Assembly (NCBI GenBank): GCA_947642635.1
Contig: CANRTI010000009.1
Span: forward strand, 1 to 42,895
Source: an uncultured Mycoplasma sp.
GTDB taxonomy: Bacteria; Bacillota_I; Bacilli_A; RF39; UBA660
Length of the DNA: 42,895 bases
Direction: 5' to 3'
The position numbers were made by a program, and so were the translations under genes. The notes beneath the pieces were generated by a model that saw only the letters and a program-made list of their open reading frames with translations, was not told where the DNA came from and did not search any database. Shown one piece after another: positions 3,911 through 19,636 of the stretch (position 1 is its first letter; every line of letters begins with the position of its first letter).

Positions 3911-3931
3911 AACAATTAGTAGGTGATAAAA

Positions 3932-4369
3932 ATGAATAAAAAGGGATTTACTTTAGTGGAATTATTGGCAGTTATAATTATATTAGGACTTATTAGTGTT
4001 ATTGCCGTTCCTTCAATTATGGGAATTAATGGTGGAATTAATGAAGAAATGTTAGAAGCGAAAGCTACTTTAATTGAAGAAGCAGCGATTATGTATGGAA
4101 GTGATTTTAAAGGTTCAATTATGGCTAGTGACAAAACTTATAATAATATGCCTTGTAAAACAATTATTGTAAGTGATTTAGTACCTACTTATTTAGAAAA
4201 AGATAATGATAATGCTTGTTTAGATAAGGATAGTGAAAATAAGGATGGGTGTATTAAAAATCCTGGTAATACAAATGATTATCTCGATCAATACCAAATA
4301 ATTATTTATTATAAAAATAAAAGAATTCATGCCAAGATGGATATAGAGAAGAATTTATCTTGTAGTTAG
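3932..4369 (+). CDS. Type IV pilin-like / prepilin protein
   Basis: The 145-aa protein begins with a short basic leader and the prepilin peptidase motif KKGFTLVELLAVI, followed by a hydrophobic helix (about residues 4-30), as in ComGC/PilA-type prepilins cleaved and N-methylated after the Gly. The globular part is small and Cys-containing (four Cys, one near the C-terminus), so disulfides outside the cell are possible. ATG 3932 is preferred over the upstream in-frame GTG at 3923 because the latter lies inside the AGGTGAT Shine-Dalgarno. Its stop abuts the Shine-Dalgarno of der. No pilus assembly ATPase or prepilin peptidase is in the window, so it depends on machinery elsewhere. Confidence 0.8.
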   Translation: MNKKGFTLVELLAVIIILGLISVIAVPSIMGINGGINEEMLEAKATLIEEAAIMYGSDFKGSIMASDKTYNNMPCKTIIVSDLVPTYLEKDNDNACLDKDSENKDGCIKNPGNTNDYLDQYQIIIYYKNKRIHAKMDIEKNLSCS

Positions 4370-4377
4370 GGGGAATT

Positions 4378-5682
4378 ATGAAAACAGTTTGTTTAATTGG
4401 AAGACCAAATGTTGGAAAGAGTAGTATTTTTAATCGGTTAATTAAAGAGAAAAAATCGATTATTTTAAGTGAACCAGGGGTTACAAGAGACCGAGTTTAT
4501 GGTGTAGTCACTTATGAAAATAAAAGATTTAATTTAATCGATACAGGGGGTATTCATGGCCCAGATAGTGATTTTAATCAAGATATTTTGATGCAAGCTG
4601 AACTTGCCATTGATGAAGCTGATTTAATCCTTTTTGTTGTCGATGGCCTAGAAGGAATAAGTGATGCGGATAAATTAATTCGGAATATGTTAAAAAAAGC
4701 GCATAAAGATGTAATTGTTCTAGTTAATAAAATTGATAATACTAAAAGAAATATGAATATTTATAATTATTATGAATTAGGGTTTGAAAAAATAATGGCT
4801 GTATCTGCCGAACATAATTTAGGTTTTAAAGAATTATTAAATACCATTTCTAAAGATATAGAAGAAGCTTCTTTAGAAACTTCGGATATTTTGCGTTTTT
4901 GCTTTATAGGGCGCCCTAATGTTGGAAAAAGTTCATTAATTAACGCTTTATTAGGTGAGGCCCGAGTAATTGTTAGTGATGTAGCGGGTACTACAAGGGA
5001 TGCAATCGATACTAAGTTTACTTATAACAAGAATGAGTATATTGTAATAGATACTGCGGGTATGCGTAAAAAGGGGCGTATTTACGAAACAATTGAAAAA
5101 TATAGTTTGTTAAGAAGTATGAAAGCAATTGAGAGAAGTGATGTTTGCATTTTAGTTATTGATGGGGAAACTGGAATAATTGAGCATGATAAACACATTT
5201 TGTCTTATGCAATTGAAGCTGGTAAAGGAATAGTTATTGCAGTTAATAAATGGGATACCATGAAAAATCCAGATCAAGATATAAAAAGATGGAAACAAGA
5301 ATTAGAAGTTTACTTTAAGTTTGTTCCTTATATTAATTTTGTGTTTGTTTCCGCTAAAACTAAAAAGAGAATTCATACCTTAATGCCAGAAATTCTTAAA
5401 GCTTATGAGAATAATAACAAAGAAATTAAAACTAGTTTGTTAAATAATATAATAGTTGATGCGGTTAATATGCATGAACCGCCTTCGTATAAAGGAAAAA
5501 GATTAAAAATTTATTTTGTGAGTCAAACAAGTATAAGACCACCGAAGTTTACATTTAATGTTAACAATAAAAAATTAGTGCATTTTAGTTATGAAAGATA
5601 CTTAGAAAATAAAATTCGGGAGGCATTTGATTTAGAAGGAACACCAATAATTTTACAATTTAAAAATAAGAGTGATAATTAA
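4378..5682 (+). CDS. der: Ribosome biogenesis GTPase Der (EngA)
   Basis: Der is a tandem-GTPase 50S assembly factor. Both G domains are visible: GRPNVGKSSIFNRL near the N-terminus with DTGGI and NKID, and a second GRPNVGKSSLINAL at about residue 178 with DTAGMRKKGR and NKWD. A C-terminal KH-like domain ends at residue 434, the family's usual length. ATG 4378 follows AGGGGGA. It is co-directional with ysxC and the pilin gene. Confidence 0.97.
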   Translation: MKTVCLIGRPNVGKSSIFNRLIKEKKSIILSEPGVTRDRVYGVVTYENKRFNLIDTGGIHGPDSDFNQDILMQAELAIDEADLILFVVDGLEGISDADKLIRNMLKKAHKDVIVLVNKIDNTKRNMNIYNYYELGFEKIMAVSAEHNLGFKELLNTISKDIEEASLETSDILRFCFIGRPNVGKSSLINALLGEARVIVSDVAGTTRDAIDTKFTYNKNEYIVIDTAGMRKKGRIYETIEKYSLLRSMKAIERSDVCILVIDGETGIIEHDKHILSYAIEAGKGIVIAVNKWDTMKNPDQDIKRWKQELEVYFKFVPYINFVFVSAKTKKRIHTLMPEILKAYENNNKEIKTSLLNNIIVDAVNMHEPPSYKGKRLKIYFVSQTSIRPPKFTFNVNNKKLVHFSYERYLENKIREAFDLEGTPIILQFKNKSDN

Positions 5683-5725
5683 ATGAGAATTATTGTAAAA
5701 AAAATCGAAAAAAGCGCTAAATTAG

Positions 5726-5754
5726 TTGACAAGAAATTATTATTTTTGTAGAAT
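5726..5754 (+). promoter_or_regulatory. Strong SigA-type promoter of the TasA-like gene
   Basis: TTGACA (5726-5731), a 17-bp spacer and TAGAAT (5749-5754). The 5' UTR downstream (about 5761-5816) contains two alternative short hairpins: AGAAATA (5761-5767) pairs with TATTTCT (5778-5784), and the same 3' arm can instead pair with AGAAAT at 5787-5792. A strong GAGGAGGGAAA Shine-Dalgarno precedes the ATG. Together these suggest high, possibly modulated expression. Confidence 0.8.
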
Positions 5755-5817
5755 TAATATAGAAATATAGAAGATAGTATTTCTGAAGAAATATGGAAAT
5801 TGAGAGGAGGGAAATAA

Positions 5818-6507
5818 ATGGACAAAAAGAACACAATGTTACTAACAGTTATTGCAGTAGCAACTTTATTAGTAGCTGTTGTAGGAGCAACATTTGCTTA
5901 TTTCTCAATTACAAGTAATCAAGATACTACTCCGACAACCGTAACAGGAGAAACTGAAGCTGTAGGTACTGTAGCATTAAATAATGAAACTTCTGCTATG
6001 CATCTTTCATTAACTGCTGCTGATATGTCTGAAGCTAATAAAGGAACAAGTTATTATGCAACTACAGAAACAGCTCAAAATTATGACACTACAAAAACTG
6101 ATCGTAGTATAGCAAAAGCTACAGTTACTGGTGGTGAAGCAACTACAAAATATAAATGTACTGCAAAAATAAATTTTAAATTAACTGGTGACATGGCAAC
6201 TCTTTTAAAAACAGGTGATGGTACTATTTCATTAACTAATGGTACTAATGCTACTGCTGAATCAACAAGCGTTGATTTAAAAGAAATTGTTGATGCTGGA
6301 ACTGATGGCAAAAATGTTAATGTAACATATAACTTAACTGGTACTGCTACTGATGAAATCAAAGCTGCTGTAGCTATTAATAATTTAGATAGTGACCAAA
6401 CTTATTTATCTGGTAAATCATTTAGTTTAGTAATTGTAACAAATGATTTTGCTTGTGATACTGTTGATAGTTTTGATACTACTGGCGGTACTGATGTTAC
6501 AGACTAG
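5818..6507 (+). CDS. SipW-type signal peptide protein, TasA/camelysin-like
   Basis: The 229-aa protein has a signal segment with the SipW-dependent pattern (basic start, hydrophobic core, then VVGATFAYFS at about residues 21-30), typical of TasA/CalY family matrix-fibre proteins and related Bacillota surface proteins. The mature part is rich in Thr, Ala and Asp, predicted beta-rich, and has two Cys that might form a disulfide. The codons favour Ala/Thr/Gly more than its neighbours, as expected for a secreted, abundant protein. It has its own strong promoter and terminator. No SipW signal peptidase gene is nearby. The assignment to TasA itself is inference from the leader and composition. Confidence 0.65.
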   Translation: MDKKNTMLLTVIAVATLLVAVVGATFAYFSITSNQDTTPTTVTGETEAVGTVALNNETSAMHLSLTAADMSEANKGTSYYATTETAQNYDTTKTDRSIAKATVTGGEATTKYKCTAKINFKLTGDMATLLKTGDGTISLTNGTNATAESTSVDLKEIVDAGTDGKNVNVTYNLTGTATDEIKAAVAINNLDSDQTYLSGKSFSLVIVTNDFACDTVDSFDTTGGTDVTD

Positions 6508-6519
6508 TAAATAAAATTT

Positions 6520-6546
6520 AAGAAGAAGTATTATCTTCTTTTTTTT
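6520..6546 (+). terminator. Intrinsic terminator of the TasA-like gene
   Basis: AAGAAGA (6520-6526) pairs with TCTTCTT (6534-6540) and is followed by a run of T to 6546. Confidence 0.8.
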
Positions 6547-6547
6547 A

Positions 6548-6576
6548 TTGCATTTTTTTCTAAAATAATATATATT
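6548..6576 (+). promoter_or_regulatory. Promoter of the IspH-like/prenyl synthase fusion gene
   Basis: TTGCAT (6548-6553), 17-bp spacer, TATATT (6571-6576). The predicted start near 6583 falls just before the first arm of the interleaved repeats, so the whole structure would be in the 5' UTR. Confidence 0.6.
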
Positions 6577-6587
6577 TAAAATAGTAA

Positions 6588-6659
6588 TAAGTATTAAATG
6601 AGAGAAATATTAAGAAAGACAATTAATGTAATACTTAGAATTTTTGTAGGATCTCTCAT
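6588..6659 (+). promoter_or_regulatory. Candidate structured leader with pseudoknot topology
   Basis: Two perfect inverted repeats are interleaved: TAAGTATTA (6588-6596) with TAATACTTA (6629-6637), and ATGAGAGA (6598-6605) with TCTCTCAT (6652-6659). The order A-B-A'-B' is that of an H-type pseudoknot, or of two mutually exclusive hairpins. It fills most of the 5' UTR of a gene that lacks a recognisable Shine-Dalgarno before its ATG; the only GGAT is next to arm B'. I do not recognise a known riboswitch class. Confidence 0.4.
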
Positions 6660-6696
6660 ACAACTAGTATTATTTTTAATTAATTAAAAATTCATT

Positions 6697-8382
6697 ATGA
6701 TATATATACCTGATAAAAGTGGGAATTGTCCTCACATAACTGATTTATTAGCTAAAATTTATTCTATTTATGAAAGAGAAGTTGCTAATGCAAATCCCAA
6801 AGGCATTAAAGTTATAAAAAAATTAATTAATAATCCCAAAGTTATTGAAGAATTAGAAGAATTAGGAATTGTTTTTATAGATGATTTTCAAAATGTTTCA
6901 ATTGAAGATATAGTTTTTCTAAATTCTTTTATGATTGATAATAAAGATTTAACTTATTTAAAAAGTAATAATATTGAATATTATGATTTAAATTGTCGTC
7001 AATTAATTAATTATCAAATAGTTAATCCTGAAGATTGTGCTTTTAATAAAGGAAAATGTCCTTATTTACAAGATTTAATTAATAGTAATATCAATTTAGC
7101 TAAAACAAGTGATGCATATTTTTTAGTAGGGAGTAAAGAGCGATTACAACCTCTTTTTGATACTATTCAAAAATATTGTGATTGTTATATAATTACTGAT
7201 TTTGAAGACTTAAAAAGAGTTATAATGGAAGAAAAATTTGATTTTTTTACTAAGATTGGGTTAAGCGGTGGCATAGAAGTATCTCAAAAAGAGTTGAGTA
7301 ATTATCAAGCTTATGGAATGTTTTTAATTTTTTATCAAAATAAATTACAGGAATTAAAAAGTAATCAAGAAGAAATAAATAATCGTTTGAAAATAGCTGA
7401 AGATAATGCTGTAATTCAGAAAGTTGTTGGACATTTTCAAGATTTAAATCAAGATGGTAAATATTTAAGAGGAGTTTTAATCGCCTTAGGAAAATATTTA
7501 AGTAATTATGAATTAGACCCAGAATATTTAAATTTAGCTTATGCTTATGAAATGTTTCAAACTTCTATTTTAATTCATGATGACATAATTGATAATGCTA
7601 AAATGAGAAGAGGGAAAGAAACAATTCCCAGAAGGATTTGTCATGAATACTTAAATCAGAGTAATAACCCAATTTATCAAACTGATGTTTTAAAATTAGC
7701 TAATTCAGTGGCTATATGTATGGGTGATTATGGCTTTTTTAACGCTTTTACAATAATTGTCCAAAATTATGCTGATCACCCCGAATTAACAAAAATATTA
7801 ACATTTTTTAACGAAATTGTAATAAAAACTATTAAAGGGGAAATTTTAGATGTTTATTTACCTTTTTTAGAAAAATATGAATTAAATAATATTACGGAAG
7901 AAGATGTTTTAAACATTTATAGTTTTAAAACAAGTTGGTATACATTAATCGGTCCTTTTTTTCTTGGCTATATCTTAGGAGGAAACAAAGAAAATGAATA
8001 TTTAAAAAATATCTTTTTAAAAATGGGGATTTTATTTCAATTAAAAGATGATATTTTAGGAATATTTGGTAATCAAGATATTGGAAAATCGAATGTTAGT
8101 GATATTGAAGAATTTAAACAAACACTACTTTATACTTATGTAATTAATACCAATTATGGTAATGATTTTTTAAAAATTTATGGTAACAAGAATATTAAGA
8201 GTAGTGAACTTCAAAAAATTCGGCAAATTTTAGTTACTAGTGGTACTATTCAATATATAAATGATTATATTGAAGATTTATATAATAGCGTTTTAGATGA
8301 AATAAATGATTTAAATTTAGAAGATGAGGGTAAGAGTTTATTAAAAGGATTATTAATTTATTTAAAAACCCGTGAGAAATAA
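6697..8382 (+). CDS. Fusion: degenerate IspH-like domain + trans-polyprenyl diphosphate synthase
   Basis: Residues 1 to ~210 follow the IspH (HMBPP reductase) fold: GNCPHI with Cys11 aligns with the GFCAGV cysteine, then the LINNPKVIEELEELGIVFID stretch, DLNC (Cys100) in place of DATCP, EDC (Cys114) in place of the DIC cysteine, and AYFLVGSKE for the VVGSKNSSN strand. IspH's substrate His, Glu, Thr and Ser positions are replaced or lie in a deleted middle segment. Residues ~235-561 are a trans-isoprenyl diphosphate synthase: HDDIID (D295-D299) with RRG after it, KT at 411-412, and QLKDDILG (D451-D452). Ser290 sits at -5 from the first Asp motif, a small residue that in this family favours longer products. 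The prenyltransferase part looks catalytically intact; the IspH part looks like a non-catalytic, possibly Fe-S-binding domain. The start is fixed by alignment to IspH. Confidence 0.8.
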   Translation: MIYIPDKSGNCPHITDLLAKIYSIYEREVANANPKGIKVIKKLINNPKVIEELEELGIVFIDDFQNVSIEDIVFLNSFMIDNKDLTYLKSNNIEYYDLNCRQLINYQIVNPEDCAFNKGKCPYLQDLINSNINLAKTSDAYFLVGSKERLQPLFDTIQKYCDCYIITDFEDLKRVIMEEKFDFFTKIGLSGGIEVSQKELSNYQAYGMFLIFYQNKLQELKSNQEEINNRLKIAEDNAVIQKVVGHFQDLNQDGKYLRGVLIALGKYLSNYELDPEYLNLAYAYEMFQTSILIHDDIIDNAKMRRGKETIPRRICHEYLNQSNNPIYQTDVLKLANSVAICMGDYGFFNAFTIIVQNYADHPELTKILTFFNEIVIKTIKGEILDVYLPFLEKYELNNITEEDVLNIYSFKTSWYTLIGPFFLGYILGGNKENEYLKNIFLKMGILFQLKDDILGIFGNQDIGKSNVSDIEEFKQTLLYTYVINTNYGNDFLKIYGNKNIKSSELQKIRQILVTSGTIQYINDYIEDLYNSVLDEINDLNLEDEGKSLLKGLLIYLKTREK

Positions 8383-8412
8383 AAGTAATTTGCTTAAAAA
8401 TTGCTTTTTTTT
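8383..8412 (+). terminator. Intrinsic terminator after the fusion gene
   Basis: AAGTAATT (8383-8390) pairs with AATTGCTT (8399-8406) with one wobble, followed by T-run to 8412. Confidence 0.7.
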
Positions 8413-8452
8413 ATATTTTTTGAGATAATTTTAATTGAAAGAAGTGATTGTT

Positions 8453-9355
8453 TTGATAATAGGAAGTCATGTCCATTTTAATAAAGAACAAATTTTAGGT
8501 TCGATAAAAGAGGCGATTAGTTATGACGCTAATGCTTGTATGTTATATACAGGAGCTCCGCAAAATACTTTTCGCAGTAGTATCAATTTAGAATATTTAA
8601 AAGAAGCTAAAAAATTGATGGCTGAAAACAATATTCAAATAGAAAATATAATATGTCATGCTCCTTATATTATTAATTTAGCCAATAAAGAAAAAATTGA
8701 TAGTTGGAATTTTTCGATTAGTTTTCTTCGTCAAGAAATTAAAAGATGTGAAGAACTAGGAATTAAATATATTGTTCTTCATCCTGGAAGTAGTGTTAAA
8801 TTATCTAAAGAAGAAGGCATTAACAATATTATTGAAGCACTTAATCATGTTATAGCCCCAGATTCTAAGTGTATGGTTTTACTTGAAACAATGGCTGGTA
8901 AAGGTAGTGAATGTGGCTCTTTATTAGAAGAAATTGCCACAATTATTAAGGGAGTATCAAGTACTAATATTGGAGTTTGTTTAGATACTTGTCATTTAAA
9001 TGATGCTGGCTATGCTATGAAAGAATTTGATGCATTTTTAGAAGAATTTGCTAAAGTTATTGGTTTAGATAAAATTAAATGTATTCATATTAATGATAGT
9101 AAAAATGCTTTAGGAAGTCATAAAGATCGTCATGAAAACATTGGATTTGGCCATTTAGGATTCGAAACAATTTTAAACATAGTTAATCATGAAAAATTAA
9201 AAGATGTTCCTAAAATATTAGAAACACCTTATATTAATAAAGATGACACACAAAAAGATCAATCATTACCACCTTATAGGTTTGAAATAGCAATGTTAAG
9301 AAAGGGAATATTCAATCAAAATCTTCTTAATGATATTAGAAATTTTTATAAATAG
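8453..9355 (+). CDS. nfo: Endonuclease IV (deoxyribonuclease IV)
   Basis: Nfo is a zinc-dependent AP endonuclease in base-excision repair. The protein has IGSHVHF at its start, CHAPYIINLA, VLHPGS, LLETMAG, GVCLDTCHLNDAGY, HINDSKN and KDRHENIGFGHLG, the last carrying the usual metal-binding His residues. Length ~300 aa fits the family. I chose TTG 8453, which puts IIGSHV at the N-terminus as in other Nfo proteins and leaves the AAGAAGTGAT Shine-Dalgarno upstream; an in-frame TTG at 8435 would add six residues. A possible promoter TTGCTT (8401) - 17 bp - GATAAT (8424-8429) overlaps the preceding terminator. It overlaps the convergent small gene by 10 bp. Confidence 0.95.
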   Translation: MIIGSHVHFNKEQILGSIKEAISYDANACMLYTGAPQNTFRSSINLEYLKEAKKLMAENNIQIENIICHAPYIINLANKEKIDSWNFSISFLRQEIKRCEELGIKYIVLHPGSSVKLSKEEGINNIIEALNHVIAPDSKCMVLLETMAGKGSECGSLLEEIATIIKGVSSTNIGVCLDTCHLNDAGYAMKEFDAFLEEFAKVIGLDKIKCIHINDSKNALGSHKDRHENIGFGHLGFETILNIVNHEKLKDVPKILETPYINKDDTQKDQSLPPYRFEIAMLRKGIFNQNLLNDIRNFYK

Positions 9356-9609
9356 TTAGCATATCTTTGGGAATATTCATGCCAAACTTTACTAATTTTA
9401 TTAAAATTTTCTTCAGAATAATTATTTTTATATCGTTCGATTTTGAAAAGACGTGGATTACTTAAAACATTTTTATAATTTTTCTTTACAAAATCAAAAG
9501 TAAAATTTAATTCATTATCTGATAAATTAATATCTTTATTTAAAGCAAAACTTCTTATGTCATCCTTAGTTAATTTACTTATATATCTTTCCACAATATT
9601 AAACATCAT
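9346..9609 (-). CDS. YqfT-like (DUF2624) small protein
   Basis: An 87-aa protein of unknown function, predicted all-helical and charged. Its size, pattern (an N-terminal KLTKDDI motif, then an SDNEL segment) and position beside nfo recall the DUF2624/YqfT family, which neighbours nfo (yqfS) in Bacillus. I start it at ATG 9609, with GAGGATGG as Shine-Dalgarno, rather than at the TTG one codon upstream. It overlaps the 3' end of nfo on the opposite strand by 10 bp and is divergent from the PBP gene. The family call is tentative. Confidence 0.6.
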   Translation of the reverse strand: MMFNIVERYISKLTKDDIRSFALNKDINLSDNELNFTFDFVKKNYKNVLSNPRLFKIERYKNNYSEENFNKISKVWHEYSQRYANYL

Positions 9610-9693
9610 CAACCATCCTCATAATATTTTATGTTAACACTTGGAAAATGAATACTAATTTGTTTTAAAACCATACTAATAATGGTGGTTTAT

Positions 9694-11631
9694 GTGAAGA
9701 AGTATATTATTTTAGTGGGACTTTTTCTAGTTTTTAGTATTCGAATTTTTTTTATAAATAACACTGATGGTAATCATTACCAAAAATTACTTGATCAAAA
9801 AACTAACAATTATGTTTACGGTTCAAGTGCTCCCAGAGGAAAAATTATTGACCGCAATGGTAAAATTTTAGTCGATAATATTGGTGTGAAAACAATATTT
9901 TATACTAAATTAAAAACGATAACCAAAAAAGATGAAATTGATATTGCAACTAAACTTGCCAACATTATTGATATTCCAATTAATGAAAATGCTTTAAAAA
10001 ATTATTGGTTAATATTAAATAATAATGGGGATGACTTAATTACTTTAGAAGAGCAAGAATTATATGAACAAAGAAAAATAAGTGCCAAAGACATTTTGCA
10101 AAAGAAATTAGAGCGCATAACTCCTGATGTTTTAAATAATTTAAGCGAATTAGAAAAAAAGAGTGCGACAATTTATGAACTTATGAACAAAGGATACTCT
10201 TATGAAAAAAAGTTAATTTTTCGAAATATTGATGATCAAATTTATAGTCAAATTGTTGATCAAAATATTCCAGGAATTACTACTGAACTTACTTGGGAAA
10301 GAGTATACAATTATGGTGAAACTTTAAAAGATATTTTTGGCACTATTGGAAGCATTCCTAAAGATTTAAAAGATGATTATTTAAAAAAAGGTTATGAATT
10401 AAACGACGTAGTTGGGTTAAGCTATTTAGAATTACAATATGAAGATTATTTAAAAGGTGAAAAAGATTTATATAAAGTAAAAAAAGATAATACTTTAGAA
10501 CTTATTAAAGAAGGTTCACCAGGAAAAGATTTAGTTCTATCAATTGATATTGAAGCCCAAATAACATTAGAAAATAGTATTAAAGAAAATATTCTAAAAG
10601 CTAAAAAATATCCTCATACTGATTATTTTAGTGAATCTTATAGTATTGCTGGTAATCCAAAAACTGGCGAAATAATCGCTTTATCTGGTCAAAAATTAAT
10701 TGATTTAGAAACCAAAACTTTTAAAAATGTGAATACTAATTTAATTAATACATCTTATACAGTTGGTTCAGTTGTCAAAATGGCTACAATTAGTACTGGT
10801 TATCAAAATAAAGTTATTGATATTAATAGTAGTATGCAAGATAGTTGTATTAAATTATATCAAGTACCTTTAAAATGTAGTTATCGCAGTCTTGGAAAAA
10901 TTAATGATTTAACTGCAATTAGTAAAAGTAGTAATTACTATCAATTTAAAATAGCTATTGGTCTTACTGGTTATAATTATAGTTATAATATGAAACTACC
11001 TACTAGCGCAAATGATTTCGAAAAATTTCGAAGTATGTTTCGAGAATATGGTTTAGGAGCTCTAACTAATATTGACCTTCCTAATGAAACTACGGGAATA
11101 AAAGGATCTAGTACCTCAAGTGATTTACTTCTAAATTTAAGTATTGGACAATATGATACATATACCCCGATTGAGTTATTTCAATATGTTAGTACAATTG
11201 CTAGTGATGGTAATAAAAGAACACCAATGTTAATGAAAGAAATTGTCCAAAATGATGAAGTTATTTTAAGAAATAATTTTGATGTTGTTAGTAAAGTTCC
11301 TTTGGAAGAAAAATATCTCAATCGTTTAAAAGAAGCGATGAATTTAGCTACTAAAAGTGGTACAGCTAGAAATTATATTAATAATAAATACAATCCAGGA
11401 GGAAAAACTGGAACTAGTGAAACATTTATTGATACAAATAATGATGGCATCATGGATACCAAAACAACTTCGATTGCCTTTGTTGGCTTTGCCCCTATTG
11501 ATAATCCTTTATACAGTGTTGTAGTTATAGTTCCAAATATTTATGTCACAATGGAATATGATTATAGTAAAGTCTATATTACCCGCTCTATTTCCCAAGA
11601 TATTACGAACTTTCTCTTTGAAAATCACTAA
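9694..11631 (+). CDS. Class B penicillin-binding protein (peptidoglycan transpeptidase)
   Basis: A monofunctional D,D-transpeptidase anchored by one N-terminal membrane helix (about residues 4-22). The PBP dimerisation domain starts at SAPRGKIIDRNG. The transpeptidase domain has SVVK (SxxK nucleophile), SSN (SxN) and GGKTGTSE (KTG). The inserted helical segment in the N-terminal domain and the total of ~645 aa resemble PBP2/PbpA-type elongation enzymes or SpoVD-like proteins; I cannot separate the two. GTG 9694 with GGTGG as Shine-Dalgarno is favoured over ATG 9682, which has no ribosome binding site. rpmG follows, an arrangement known in other Firmicutes. Confidence 0.9.
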   Translation: MKKYIILVGLFLVFSIRIFFINNTDGNHYQKLLDQKTNNYVYGSSAPRGKIIDRNGKILVDNIGVKTIFYTKLKTITKKDEIDIATKLANIIDIPINENALKNYWLILNNNGDDLITLEEQELYEQRKISAKDILQKKLERITPDVLNNLSELEKKSATIYELMNKGYSYEKKLIFRNIDDQIYSQIVDQNIPGITTELTWERVYNYGETLKDIFGTIGSIPKDLKDDYLKKGYELNDVVGLSYLELQYEDYLKGEKDLYKVKKDNTLELIKEGSPGKDLVLSIDIEAQITLENSIKENILKAKKYPHTDYFSESYSIAGNPKTGEIIALSGQKLIDLETKTFKNVNTNLINTSYTVGSVVKMATISTGYQNKVIDINSSMQDSCIKLYQVPLKCSYRSLGKINDLTAISKSSNYYQFKIAIGLTGYNYSYNMKLPTSANDFEKFRSMFREYGLGALTNIDLPNETTGIKGSSTSSDLLLNLSIGQYDTYTPIELFQYVSTIASDGNKRTPMLMKEIVQNDEVILRNNFDVVSKVPLEEKYLNRLKEAMNLATKSGTARNYINNKYNPGGKTGTSETFIDTNNDGIMDTKTTSIAFVGFAPIDNPLYSVVVIVPNIYVTMEYDYSKVYITRSISQDITNFLFENH

Positions 11632-16048: not shown

Positions 16049-16085
16049 AAATTACACATTAATTTGAAGACTGTGTAATTTTTTT
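16049..16085. terminator. Bidirectional terminator between hypothetical gene and gerAB
   Basis: A 10-bp stem AAATTACACA/TGTGTAATTT (16049-16058 with 16072-16081), T-run after, A-run before. The gerAB stop codon (16059-16061) sits in the loop. Confidence 0.85.
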
Positions 16086-17087
16086 CTTTAATTTTAAATA
16101 GATTAATAGAATTATAAAAAGTACTAAGAAACCTGCTAATATTAATGGATAAAAAGTAAACATAGTTATAGTTATTCGATAATTTTTTCCCACAAAGTAA
16201 GAAGAAATAATTAAAGCTAAAAGACAAATTCCATAAAAATATACTTTTTTATAAGTCTTAGGTAGTATTCCATGTAAGTTTGTACTAAGAGTAGATAGTG
16301 TAATAAACATATCGAAATACCAAATAAATGAAGAAATATTTTCCACATTTTCAATAAAATCTAAAATTTTAATTTGTTTTAAGACAGCATATTCAGGAAA
16401 ACTATACATCTTGATTAATGTTTCACCCATCGACATTATTGTAATTATTGTAACCATTAAAGAGAAAATAGAAGCTAAAGAATAATTTTTTAAATTAGTT
16501 TTAAAATCTCCATCATAATTAAGAGTTAAAATTTGCGGAATACTTGTAACCGAAGCATATACTAAAGAGGCTTTAATGATACTCATACTTTTTGTTGTAA
16601 AGACTGGTAGTAGTTCACTAACACTTATATATTTTGTTAAAAATAAAGCATAGATAACCATTATTAAGATACTAATAACACATAATAAGCTACTTAATGA
16701 TTCCAAAACTCTTTTTCCTTTTTTAGTAATATAGAGTGCTAAAAATAAGAATGGAATATTAATTAATATTTTAGGAGTATAAATTAAATAGAATGAATTA
16801 ACAAACATCGACAATAAGGTAATAATTACAACCATTAAAAATAAGTAAAATATTATTAATATTACAATATATAACTTACCCACAAAAGTTTTTTGCAAAG
16901 TATCTTTTATTTTATGATTTTGAAATTCTTGTTTTAATAAATCATATAGGTAAAGAACAATAATTCCTAAAAGTGTTCCTAGGATAATTGCAATCCAGGC
17001 ATCTTTACCAGTATACTTAAATATCAAAAATGAACCAATTCCAAACATATAAGACCGGGCAATAAAATAAGTTAATTTATTTTTCAT
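16059..17087 (-). CDS. Spore germination permease, GerAB family
   Basis: A 342-aa polytopic membrane protein with about ten TM helices of the amino-acid-permease-like GerAB/GerKB family, the germinant-binding subunit of spore nutrient receptors. The N-terminal RSYMFGIGSFLIF region and the AWIAIILGTLLG TM2 pattern fit. It is the last gene of the operon, overlapping the upstream GerC gene by ATGA at 17084-17087. The expected location is the spore inner membrane. Confidence 0.88.
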   Translation of the reverse strand: MKNKLTYFIARSYMFGIGSFLIFKYTGKDAWIAIILGTLLGIIVLYLYDLLKQEFQNHKIKDTLQKTFVGKLYIVILIIFYLFLMVVIITLLSMFVNSFYLIYTPKILINIPFLFLALYITKKGKRVLESLSSLLCVISILIMVIYALFLTKYISVSELLPVFTTKSMSIIKASLVYASVTSIPQILTLNYDGDFKTNLKNYSLASIFSLMVTIITIMSMGETLIKMYSFPEYAVLKQIKILDFIENVENISSFIWYFDMFITLSTLSTNLHGILPKTYKKVYFYGICLLALIISSYFVGKNYRITITMFTFYPLILAGFLVLFIILLIYLKLKKKITQSSN

Positions 17088-18154
17088 TTTGCCACCTCAA
17101 ATATAAATCCTTTTGTATTAATTTTTAAGTCAACATTAATTTTTACTTTAGCACTTGTCCACAATCCTTTATTTGATTTTCTGGTATTTTTATAATATAT
17201 TTCTTGTAAACCCAAAATATCACTTTCATTTTCTTGTAAAACAATAATAAAATCTTTAACTTGATTTTCAATTACTTTTTCAAAATCTCTATTTAGTTTT
17301 TGATAACTATCTTCTTCTTTTAAATCAAATTTTGCATTATTTTCTAAAACTTTAGCTTCTAATTTTAAATCAATTGTTATTTTATCATCAGTAATACTAA
17401 TATCTTTTTTAGAATTAGTTATTGTAATAGTTACATTTTTATCATCATATTCTTTACTAAAATCCATGGCATGAACATTTTTATCAAACAAATTATAAAT
17501 AACCGAGTCTTGTAAAGATAAAACATTTTGATAATTATATCCTTTAAAAATATAAGAATTAGCTATCCCAATTTTATCATCTTTAATAGTAATGGAATTT
17601 AAAATATTATCTTGATAATCACTGATAGCTTTAACCACATTCTTTTGAAAAAAATCCCCAATTGCTAAACTATTATTATAAATTTCATTATTGATAATAT
17701 TCATAATTAAATCACTTACAACCGGATTATTTTTATCATTATGTTTAAGAATTTCTTCTGGTGAATTATCTTTTGCTACCAATAAAATAAATTCATCTCG
17801 GATATTTGTATCCCGAATTAAATAATCAACAATTTCTTTAATTTTATCTTTAATAATAGTTTCACTTAATAATGTAATTTTTAAATGGGCAAAATAAGGA
17901 TTTTTCCCAACTTTATAATTAGTTTTTACAAAAGCTTCTGCAATTGTTTTCCCACTTCCTGAAATAGTATAACTTTTCATAGCACTATTATCTTCGGTTT
18001 TAGTATCACTCAATATTTCATAAGTTAAATAGAATTCATCATCTTTATAATCAATTCCGAGTCCAGTTATTATAGCTAGTTCATTTAACTCAATATTATC
18101 ATAACAACCAGTTACTAAAAAGATACATGTAATTAATATAAATATTTTTTTCAT
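17084..18154 (-). CDS. Spore germination lipoprotein, Ger(x)C family
   Basis: A 356-aa lipoprotein: signal peptide with lipobox LVTGC (Cys17), followed by the family-typical YDNIELNELAIITGLGIDY and the central domain containing PYFAHLKITLLSE. It is the lipoprotein subunit of a GerA-type receptor. ATGA overlaps at both ends (18151-18154 and 17084-17087) show tight translational coupling in the order gerAA-gerAC-gerAB. Confidence 0.92.
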   Translation of the reverse strand: MKKIFILITCIFLVTGCYDNIELNELAIITGLGIDYKDDEFYLTYEILSDTKTEDNSAMKSYTISGSGKTIAEAFVKTNYKVGKNPYFAHLKITLLSETIIKDKIKEIVDYLIRDTNIRDEFILLVAKDNSPEEILKHNDKNNPVVSDLIMNIINNEIYNNSLAIGDFFQKNVVKAISDYQDNILNSITIKDDKIGIANSYIFKGYNYQNVLSLQDSVIYNLFDKNVHAMDFSKEYDDKNVTITITNSKKDISITDDKITIDLKLEAKVLENNAKFDLKEEDSYQKLNRDFEKVIENQVKDFIIVLQENESDILGLQEIYYKNTRKSNKGLWTSAKVKINVDLKINTKGFIFEVAK

Positions 18155-19563
18155 TTAAATCTTCCTCTTACTTTATTTTTATCAGTTATAAGTCTACTTC
18201 TTGTCGTATTATTAATATCCTTTTTCTTTAAAATAGTTTTAAAGAAATAATCTTTGTTAAATGGCGCAATTGGGGCAAAATAAGGTGAATTTAAAGAACT
18301 AATTGAAATCACATTAATTAAGAATAAAATACTACAAATAAATATACCATATAACCCTAGAAAAGCTGCAAAAAACAAAAATAAATATCTATAATATCGA
18401 AGGGCATTATCAATTTCTAATTCTGTAAAAATCAAACTAGAAATAAATGTAAATGCAGTTATAATAATTGTTATTGGTGACACAATTCCAGCATTTACAG
18501 CCGCATCGCCAATTAATAAAGCTCCTAATATTGAAATAGCTGAACCAAAATTAGATGGAAATCTCAAATCACTTTCTCTTAAAATATCACAAATTAATAA
18601 CAACAATAATACTTCCACAATACTTGGAAAAGGTACTCCCGATCTTTGAATACTAAAATTAATTAACAAACTAGTTGGAATGGTTTCTTGATTATAATTT
18701 ATAATTGCTACAAATAATCCAGGAGTAACCATAGATAAAACAAAACTCAATAACCTTAATATTTTAATAAAGGATACATTGATACTTTTTACATAATTAT
18801 CATTGATTGGATTAATAAAATCTGCTAAAAAGGTAGGTAAAATTAAAGCAAAAGGGGAAGTATCTGTCATGATAATAATTTTTCCTTCTAAAAGCGCATT
18901 ACTAACCGCGTCAGGTCTTTCTGTTCTTTTAATAGTTGGAAAAACAGATTTATTTTCTCCTTCAATATAATGAATAATAGTAGCACAATCTAAAATACCA
19001 TCAACATCAATATCTTGTAATTTCTTTTTAATTTTTATAATATTATTGTCATCAGCAACCCCTTTAATATAGTTAATACTTATTTTAGTTTTAGTAAGTC
19101 TTCCCATAGTAAGTTCATCAGATTTAAAATTATTACTCTTAATTCTTCTTTTAATTAACCCCATATTTGTTTGATAATTTTCTACAAAAGCATCTTCTGG
19201 TCCTAATATAGCAGGTTCTCTACTAGAAGTACTAATACTTCTACTAAGATCAGCTTTAACTTCAATAGCAATAATATTTTTATCCGAAATAACTATAGCA
19301 AATCCATTAGTTAAATAAAATTCTATCTCATCATATTTTTGAATTTTACTTGTATTTGGACCAGGAATATTACTATTTAAATCCATGTTTTTATTATACT
19401 TGGTTAAATTTTTTAAAATAAAGTCATTAACTTTAGTACTATCACATACTGTTTCCATATAAACGACCCAGATAGTTTTAAAAGACGTTATTTTTATTTC
19501 TTTAAATTTTAAATCAGGCACGTTTTGAAAATCATTCTTAATTTTTTCAATTGTTTCTTTCAT
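18151..19563 (-). CDS. Spore germination protein, GerAA family
   Basis: About 470 aa: an N-terminal cytoplasmic domain (with YMETVCDSTKVNDFILKNL and IVISDKNIIAIEVKAD), then the GerA membrane domain with PDAVSNALLEGKIIIMTDTSPFAL, FINPINDNY and GVPFPSIVEVLLL, typical of the family. It is the large receptor subunit that together with GerAB and GerAC transduces germinant signals. I choose ATG 19563 (Shine-Dalgarno-like AGTGAT) over an upstream ATG at 19617, which lacks a ribosome binding site and would add a hydrophobic stretch not expected before this domain. No clear SigG promoter could be read. Confidence 0.93.
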   Translation of the reverse strand: MKETIEKIKNDFQNVPDLKFKEIKITSFKTIWVVYMETVCDSTKVNDFILKNLTKYNKNMDLNSNIPGPNTSKIQKYDEIEFYLTNGFAIVISDKNIIAIEVKADLSRSISTSSREPAILGPEDAFVENYQTNMGLIKRRIKSNNFKSDELTMGRLTKTKISINYIKGVADDNNIIKIKKKLQDIDVDGILDCATIIHYIEGENKSVFPTIKRTERPDAVSNALLEGKIIIMTDTSPFALILPTFLADFINPINDNYVKSINVSFIKILRLLSFVLSMVTPGLFVAIINYNQETIPTSLLINFSIQRSGVPFPSIVEVLLLLLICDILRESDLRFPSNFGSAISILGALLIGDAAVNAGIVSPITIIITAFTFISSLIFTELEIDNALRYYRYLFLFFAAFLGLYGIFICSILFLINVISISSLNSPYFAPIAPFNKDYFFKTILKKKDINNTTRSRLITDKNKVRGRFK

Positions 19564-19636
19564 AATTATCACTAAAATTATTATTGGCAAAAAACACCAA
19601 ATAATACTTAAAAACATACAATATAATAGGTGAATT

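Follow-up and report, generated by a model that had tools for sequence, protein, structure and literature searches.

Fused to a prenyl synthase, an apparently degenerate IspH domain mostly retains its iron–sulphur ligand cysteines in a genus of RF39 bacteria

We asked what role, if any, remains for an IspH domain that is fused to an isoprenoid chain-elongation enzyme and appears to have lost its own activity. The domain is encoded in a 42,895-nucleotide stretch of DNA (the window; contig CANRTI010000009.1 of assembly GCA_947642635.1) from an uncultured Mycoplasma sp. (GTDB lineage Bacteria; Bacillota_I; Bacilli_A; RF39; UBA660). IspH (LytB, or 4-hydroxy-3-methylbut-2-enyl diphosphate (HMBPP) reductase) is the last enzyme of the pathway that makes the isoprenoid building blocks. 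In the product of the open reading frame (ORF) studied here, residues 1–214 correspond to a shortened IspH and residues ∼230–561 to a trans-prenyl diphosphate synthase. A preliminary description, made from the letters of the window, had seen in it a former enzyme joined to a chain-elongation enzyme, and both the homology and the lost catalytic pocket bear this out. We think it reasonably probable that this pseudo-IspH, which would probably still hold a cluster, stabilises or tunes the synthase in a bacterium that is auxotrophic for isoprenoid precursors.

The N-terminal part matches the Pfam family LYTB (PF02401) over residues 27–102 with 38–39.7 bits, above the curated cut-off of 24.5 (E-values 1.5e-9 for the whole protein and 4.4e-10 for the N-terminal part alone). 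We also compared, by hhalign, a profile of four N-terminal domains that have domain 2 deleted (from the window and genomes G016, G019 and G241) with canonical IspH sequences that belong to other families in the class. These four shortest domains aligned over 181 columns with IspH positions 2–274 (probability 94%, E-value 1.2e-7), and ten less eroded degenerate domains reached 99% and 1e-18. A chance match is ruled out by the Pfam score and these profile matches, and the homology to IspH proposed in the preliminary description stands. The same holds for its missing middle segment: the alignment of the four domains contains one large gap where domain 2 of IspH should sit. In the window copy the deletion, between the second and third ligand cysteines, takes out this domain as a unit and thus breaks the three-domain fold of IspH; full-length relatives have ∼80 residues more at this junction.

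Cysteines 11, 100 and 121 of the window protein align with the Fe–S ligands C12, C96 and C197 of Escherichia coli IspH. Residues 11, 100 and 114 had been named before; the first two assignments were right, whereas C114 is not an aligned ligand and the third is C121 in both alignments. Compared position by position with the E. coli enzyme, the catalytic and substrate-binding residues H41, H74, H124, E126, T167, S225, N227 and S269 correspond in the window copy to N, F, N, E, a gap, a gap, R and E, so the pocket of His, Glu, Thr and Ser residues has indeed gone, with the aligned E126 remaining. Moreover, the window copy scored 29.7–33 bits against the TIGR00216 equivalog profile, for which the cut-off is 187.85. 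Two of the three full-length relatives scored exceed this value (G321, 208.8; G001, 194.3) and the third just misses it (G011, 187.0), and the active site is conserved in the full-length relatives. With its pocket residues gone and domain 2 deleted, the IspH half of the window copy is predicted to be catalytically dead. That it still performs IspH-type chemistry on some other substrate is very hard to credit: the retained cluster ligands speak for it, but all substrate-contact residues except the aligned E126 are lost, and little is left of domain 2, the carrier of H124, E126 and T167.

By contrast, nothing in the sequence of the synthase half suggests that it is inactive: it has the family profile, the fold and both Asp-rich motifs. 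It matches PF00348 (polyprenyl_synt) over residues 250–511 (E-values 8.8e-41 and 2.3e-41), its best Foldseek match is a geranylgeranyl diphosphate (GGPP) synthase of Corynebacterium glutamicum (3QQV, E-value 2.2e-13), and phmmer matched 3LK5, also a GGPP synthase of C. glutamicum (E-value 1e-22). Both motifs had been called intact; this is true of the first, DDIID, whereas the second, DDILG, differs from DDxxD. Because the solved 3LK5 has DDLLG at this place, the DDxxG form is no argument against activity. An AlphaFold2 model, for which the window protein and relatives without the N-terminal part served as input, was confident for the synthase and moderately so for domain 3 (strands at residues 140–144, 162–166 and 187–191; pLDDT, the predicted local distance difference test, ∼70–90). 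A helix connects the IspH part with the synthase in this model; residues 1–138 were modelled with low confidence.

A frameshift, misassembly or chimera artefact is ruled out as the source of the fusion by its presence in 23 of the 25 genomes of the same genus and in other genera. In the window genome the fusion is the sole IspH match and the sole trans-prenyl-synthase match; the separate intact ispH and ispA that the preliminary description proposed to look for were not found elsewhere in this genome. The survey of the fusion that it also proposed, which we ran over 385 genomes of the order, showed this architecture in 30 or more genomes, close relatives with an intact IspH active site among them. 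Outside the genus, full-length fusions occur in three genera (G231, G292 and G321; G178; G158) and shorter stub–synthase ORFs in four, while other genera have separate IspH and synthase genes. All 13 active-site and ligand residues examined are kept in nine members of the genus (G015 has T167S) and in G158, G178 and G321; for G231 and G292, S226 is the only difference. The ORFs form a size series: 640 amino acids for the full fusion, 595–615 for eroded copies, 541–561 without domain 2, 455–470 with domain 3 only, ∼410–425 with a short remnant and ∼355 for the synthase alone. In the stub fusions L246 (G047), L245, L247 and L244 the first IspH strand is joined directly to domain 3, a deletion that differs from that of the window copy. 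Maximum-likelihood analysis of the synthase domain placed every fusion and stub gene in a single 47-row group (support 96/88), which also contains one synthase-only gene (G141) and adjoins a group of stand-alone synthases; because the outgroup rows are split, the root of this order-level tree is insecure. The distribution is consistent with a single fusion that was then eroded repeatedly.

The genus has lost the upstream part of the methylerythritol phosphate (MEP) pathway. A joint query with E. coli Dxs, Dxr, IspD, IspF, IspE and UppS matched all six proteins in most other members of the class, and only UppS in the window genome and in nearly all of the genus. With this query DXR, IspD, IspE and IspF were not found in the genus, apart from a weak IspD-like match in G011, and DXS appeared as an exception in G023 and, with a further query, in G262 and G174. 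In these three genomes we noted an extra stand-alone IspH or DXS (G262, C29 and C36; G023, C36; G174, C32), which could be a retained gene, a transfer or contamination. IspG, HMG-CoA synthase and type-2 isopentenyl diphosphate (IPP) isomerase were not found in the 25 genomes of the genus, a search that did not extend to transporters, isopentenyl-phosphate kinase or the type-1 isomerase. Across the order, 5 of the 385 genomes have IspG, and none has mevalonate-diphosphate decarboxylase. As the genomes are drafts, single absences are weak evidence, while repeated absence over 25 genomes is strong. Full fusions stand alongside DXS, DXR and IspG in G321 and G178, and because of this co-occurrence a bifunctional IspH–synthase makes sense there. 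Many genomes without IspG nevertheless have an 'orphan' IspH whose active-site residues are all present, whether it is part of a fusion or a separate protein; this hints at cross-feeding of HMBPP.

Can the remaining IspH half be told apart from mere debris? In the 18 degenerate copies of the genus, H41 and H74 are kept in none, H124 and T168 in one each and S225 in two, and T167 and S269 are missing from nearly all; the substrate pocket seems to have been lost repeatedly because the supply of substrate was gone. In contrast, the ligands C12 and C96 are each kept in 15/18 copies and C197 in 14/18. All three ligands are present in 14 copies, two or three are lost in 4, and in no copy is exactly one lost. 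Thus both the HMM match and the conservation of the cysteines among orthologues, the two points on which the preliminary description had made its reading depend, were found. Intact fusions have two further conserved cysteines, which are not ligands; these survive in 3/18 and 0/18 copies. Fisher tests gave p ∼1e-12 and ∼1e-20, values that overstate the case because the sequences were treated as independent. A set of 29 intact IspH domains has 17 invariant columns, of which N42, G10, C12, C96, G75, C197 and D93, i.e. the ligands and their sequence neighbours, are retained most often in the degenerate copies, and in G002, G003, G007 and G346 the three ligands are the only cysteines within the domain. 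Furthermore, a single clade of degenerate copies is rejected (approximately unbiased (AU) test, p 0.0004; at least 4 changes of state). The test thus rules out one ancestral loss of catalysis inherited by all of them, and rooted counts run from 4 changes up. The ratio of non-synonymous to synonymous substitution rates (dN/dS) of the N-terminal part is 0.12–0.26 in close degenerate pairs; the domain thus appears to be still under purifying selection and not in free drift.

These data bear on the possibility that the IspH half is a pure vestige, useless after the loss of IspG, deleted stepwise and kept by attachment or co-folding, with cysteines that are simply residues of the fold core. Such a course would agree with the size gradient from 640-residue fusions to the ∼355-residue synthase, with a dN/dS that in most pairs is higher for the N-terminal part than for the synthase, and with the four degenerate orthologues without the ligand set. 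However, the ligand cysteines are kept as well as the columns most critical to the fold, whereas the pocket residues and non-ligand cysteines of equal conservation are gone, this pattern spans lineages with separate losses of catalysis, and the ligands are either all kept or lost at least two at a time, never singly. We regard a pure vestige as unlikely; decay after the loss of substrate supply must still be weighed seriously against a dedicated regulator because other genera have the domain whittled down to a stub or to nothing. A different possibility is that the three cysteines bind another metal (e.g. Zn) or form a disulphide, a structural staple with no redox role. Extra cysteines near by in the window copy (C114, C161 and C163) could help to bind Zn, and the exposed fourth site makes the IspH cluster fragile, but in several orthologues the domain contains exactly three cysteines and lacks a conserved fourth ligand, which resembles the IspH cluster and not structural Zn. 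We consider this explanation improbable.

The reading we favour, a pseudo-IspH that stabilises or tunes its synthase, would run as follows. At its origin the fusion was probably a bifunctional enzyme that converted HMBPP to IPP and dimethylallyl diphosphate and these to prenyl diphosphates, because full-length members keep both active sites, some of them in genomes with DXS, DXR and IspG. The genus then lost the upstream MEP pathway and kept UppS, no mevalonate pathway being found in it. The cell would import C5 or short prenyl precursors, from which the synthase would make an allylic primer (farnesyl diphosphate (FPP) or GGPP) for UppS and hence for undecaprenyl phosphate. The pseudo-IspH half would survive because its three ligand cysteines still bind a cluster of metal, in all likelihood [4Fe-4S], and this cluster may stabilise the synthase or tune it to redox state or iron. 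Several points weigh against this reading. Two or three ligands are missing from the copies of G006, G014, G019 and G241, which evidently kept the synthase, in some other genera the IspH half has shrunk to a remnant of domain 3 or is gone, and a cluster would seem dispensable in some lineages. The counts given above cover related sequences and hence are not independent. A wider proposal, which we make very tentatively, is that orphaned IspH has repeatedly and in parallel become a non-catalytic [4Fe-4S] sensor that couples redox or iron to prenyl elongation, and hence to the supply of the wall lipid carrier, in auxotrophs, and that species with intact IspH and no IspG use the HMBPP of their neighbours.

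How does this protein compare with known systems? The preliminary description named no characterised example, and we found neither an IspH–trans-prenyl-synthase fusion nor a comparable Fe–S pseudoenzyme in the open-access literature. The domain is homologous to IspH/LytB (TIGR00216, PF02401) with the same order of ligand cysteines, and the surroundings G10-x-C12, N42, G75 and D93-x-x-C96 persist in most degenerate copies; unlike IspH/LytB, the window protein is fused to a trans-prenyl synthase, has lost the pocket and has domain 2 deleted. Rao et al. list RPS1, UbiA and four single-species partners of IspH, with no trans-prenyl synthase among them, and Fe/O2 sensing is proposed there for IspH–RPS1 (PMC4746011). 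These 'Rosetta stone' fusions have an N-terminal IspH and a C-terminal partner, as in the window, and UbiA, like the synthase here, handles prenyl diphosphates; a catalytically dead IspH half, as predicted in the window copy, is not described for them (PMC4746011). What appears to be new is an IspH fusion architecture whose IspH half is a pseudoenzyme with retained cluster ligands. The synthase shares its fold, the first Asp-rich motif and DDxxG with the IdsA/GGPP-synthase type (C. glutamicum 3LK5/3QQV), which does not have the N-terminal pseudo-IspH extension. In uncultured RF39/RFN20 Tenericutes, ispA has been reported missing and bactoprenol synthesis decaying (PMC7301438). The closest metabolic parallel is Rickettsia, a wall maker without the MEP or mevalonate pathway that needs outside isoprenoids; it keeps idi and has no trans-FPP synthase (PMC6854040), whereas the window lineage keeps the trans-synthase and type-2 IDI was not found there.

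Table 1. Positions in the window of the fusion ORF, its parts and other features
Feature	Position	Strand	Basis or remark
Fusion ORF, 561 amino acids, pseudo-IspH + trans-prenyl diphosphate synthase	6697..8382	+	ATG start; stop 8380-8382
IspH domain-1 homologue, residues 1-100	6697..6996	+	LYTB match 27-102; hhalign to canonical IspH
Cys11 codon (E. coli IspH Fe-S ligand C12)	6727..6729	+	Alignments; C12 kept in 15/18 degenerate orthologues
Cys100 codon (ligand C96)	6994..6996	+	Alignments; C96 kept in 15/18 degenerate orthologues
Junction replacing IspH domain 2	6997..7056	+	Includes Cys114 (7036-7038), not an aligned ligand
Cys121 codon (ligand C197)	7057..7059	+	Alignments; C197 kept in 14/18 degenerate orthologues
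IspH domain-3 homologue, ~residues 121-201, alpha/beta fold	7057..7299	+	hhalign; AlphaFold2
Predicted continuous helix 197-222 bridging IspH part and synthase	7285..7362	+	AlphaFold2
Trans-prenyl diphosphate synthase domain	7339..8379	+	PF00348; Foldseek 3QQV; phmmer 3LK5
First Asp-rich motif DDIID, residues 295-299	7579..7593	+	Invariant across 22 relatives
Second Asp-rich motif DDILG, residues 451-455	8047..8061	+	Third Asp replaced by Gly, as in 3LK5 (DDLLG)
ORF with pseudopilin-like prepilin peptide	3923-4369		148 amino acids
Predicted exported Thr-rich protein	5818-6507		229 amino acids
Spore germination genes	16059-19617	-	GerA, GerAC, spore permease

In the window the fusion has der on one side and nfo and a penicillin-binding protein (PBP) gene on the other (4378–11631), unlike in most of the genus, where cotE-rpsP-khpA lies just upstream of it. 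Synteny was rejected as proof of ancestry: the window order fusion-nfo-PBP resembles that in G255, of another genus (EFP..stub-nfo-PBP), and G034 (ispH..nfo..PBP), whereas cotE-rpsP-khpA-fusion is the order in most of the genus. Just upstream of the window fusion lies the Thr-rich protein, which has no Pfam match; the prepilin peptide of the 148-residue ORF reads KGFTLVELL. The germination genes, together with cotE-rpsP-khpA upstream of the fusion in relatives, suggest a spore former with a genome of 1.3 Mb.

Taken as we read it, this family would offer, among species alive today, a dated series in which an Fe–S enzyme was orphaned by pathway loss and lost catalysis in parallel while its cluster ligands were kept. 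This makes it testable whether an Fe–S cluster can persist in a structural or sensory role once catalysis has gone, and it makes equally testable from where isoprenoid precursors reach a lineage that builds a wall, apparently forms spores and has neither the MEP nor the mevalonate pathway.
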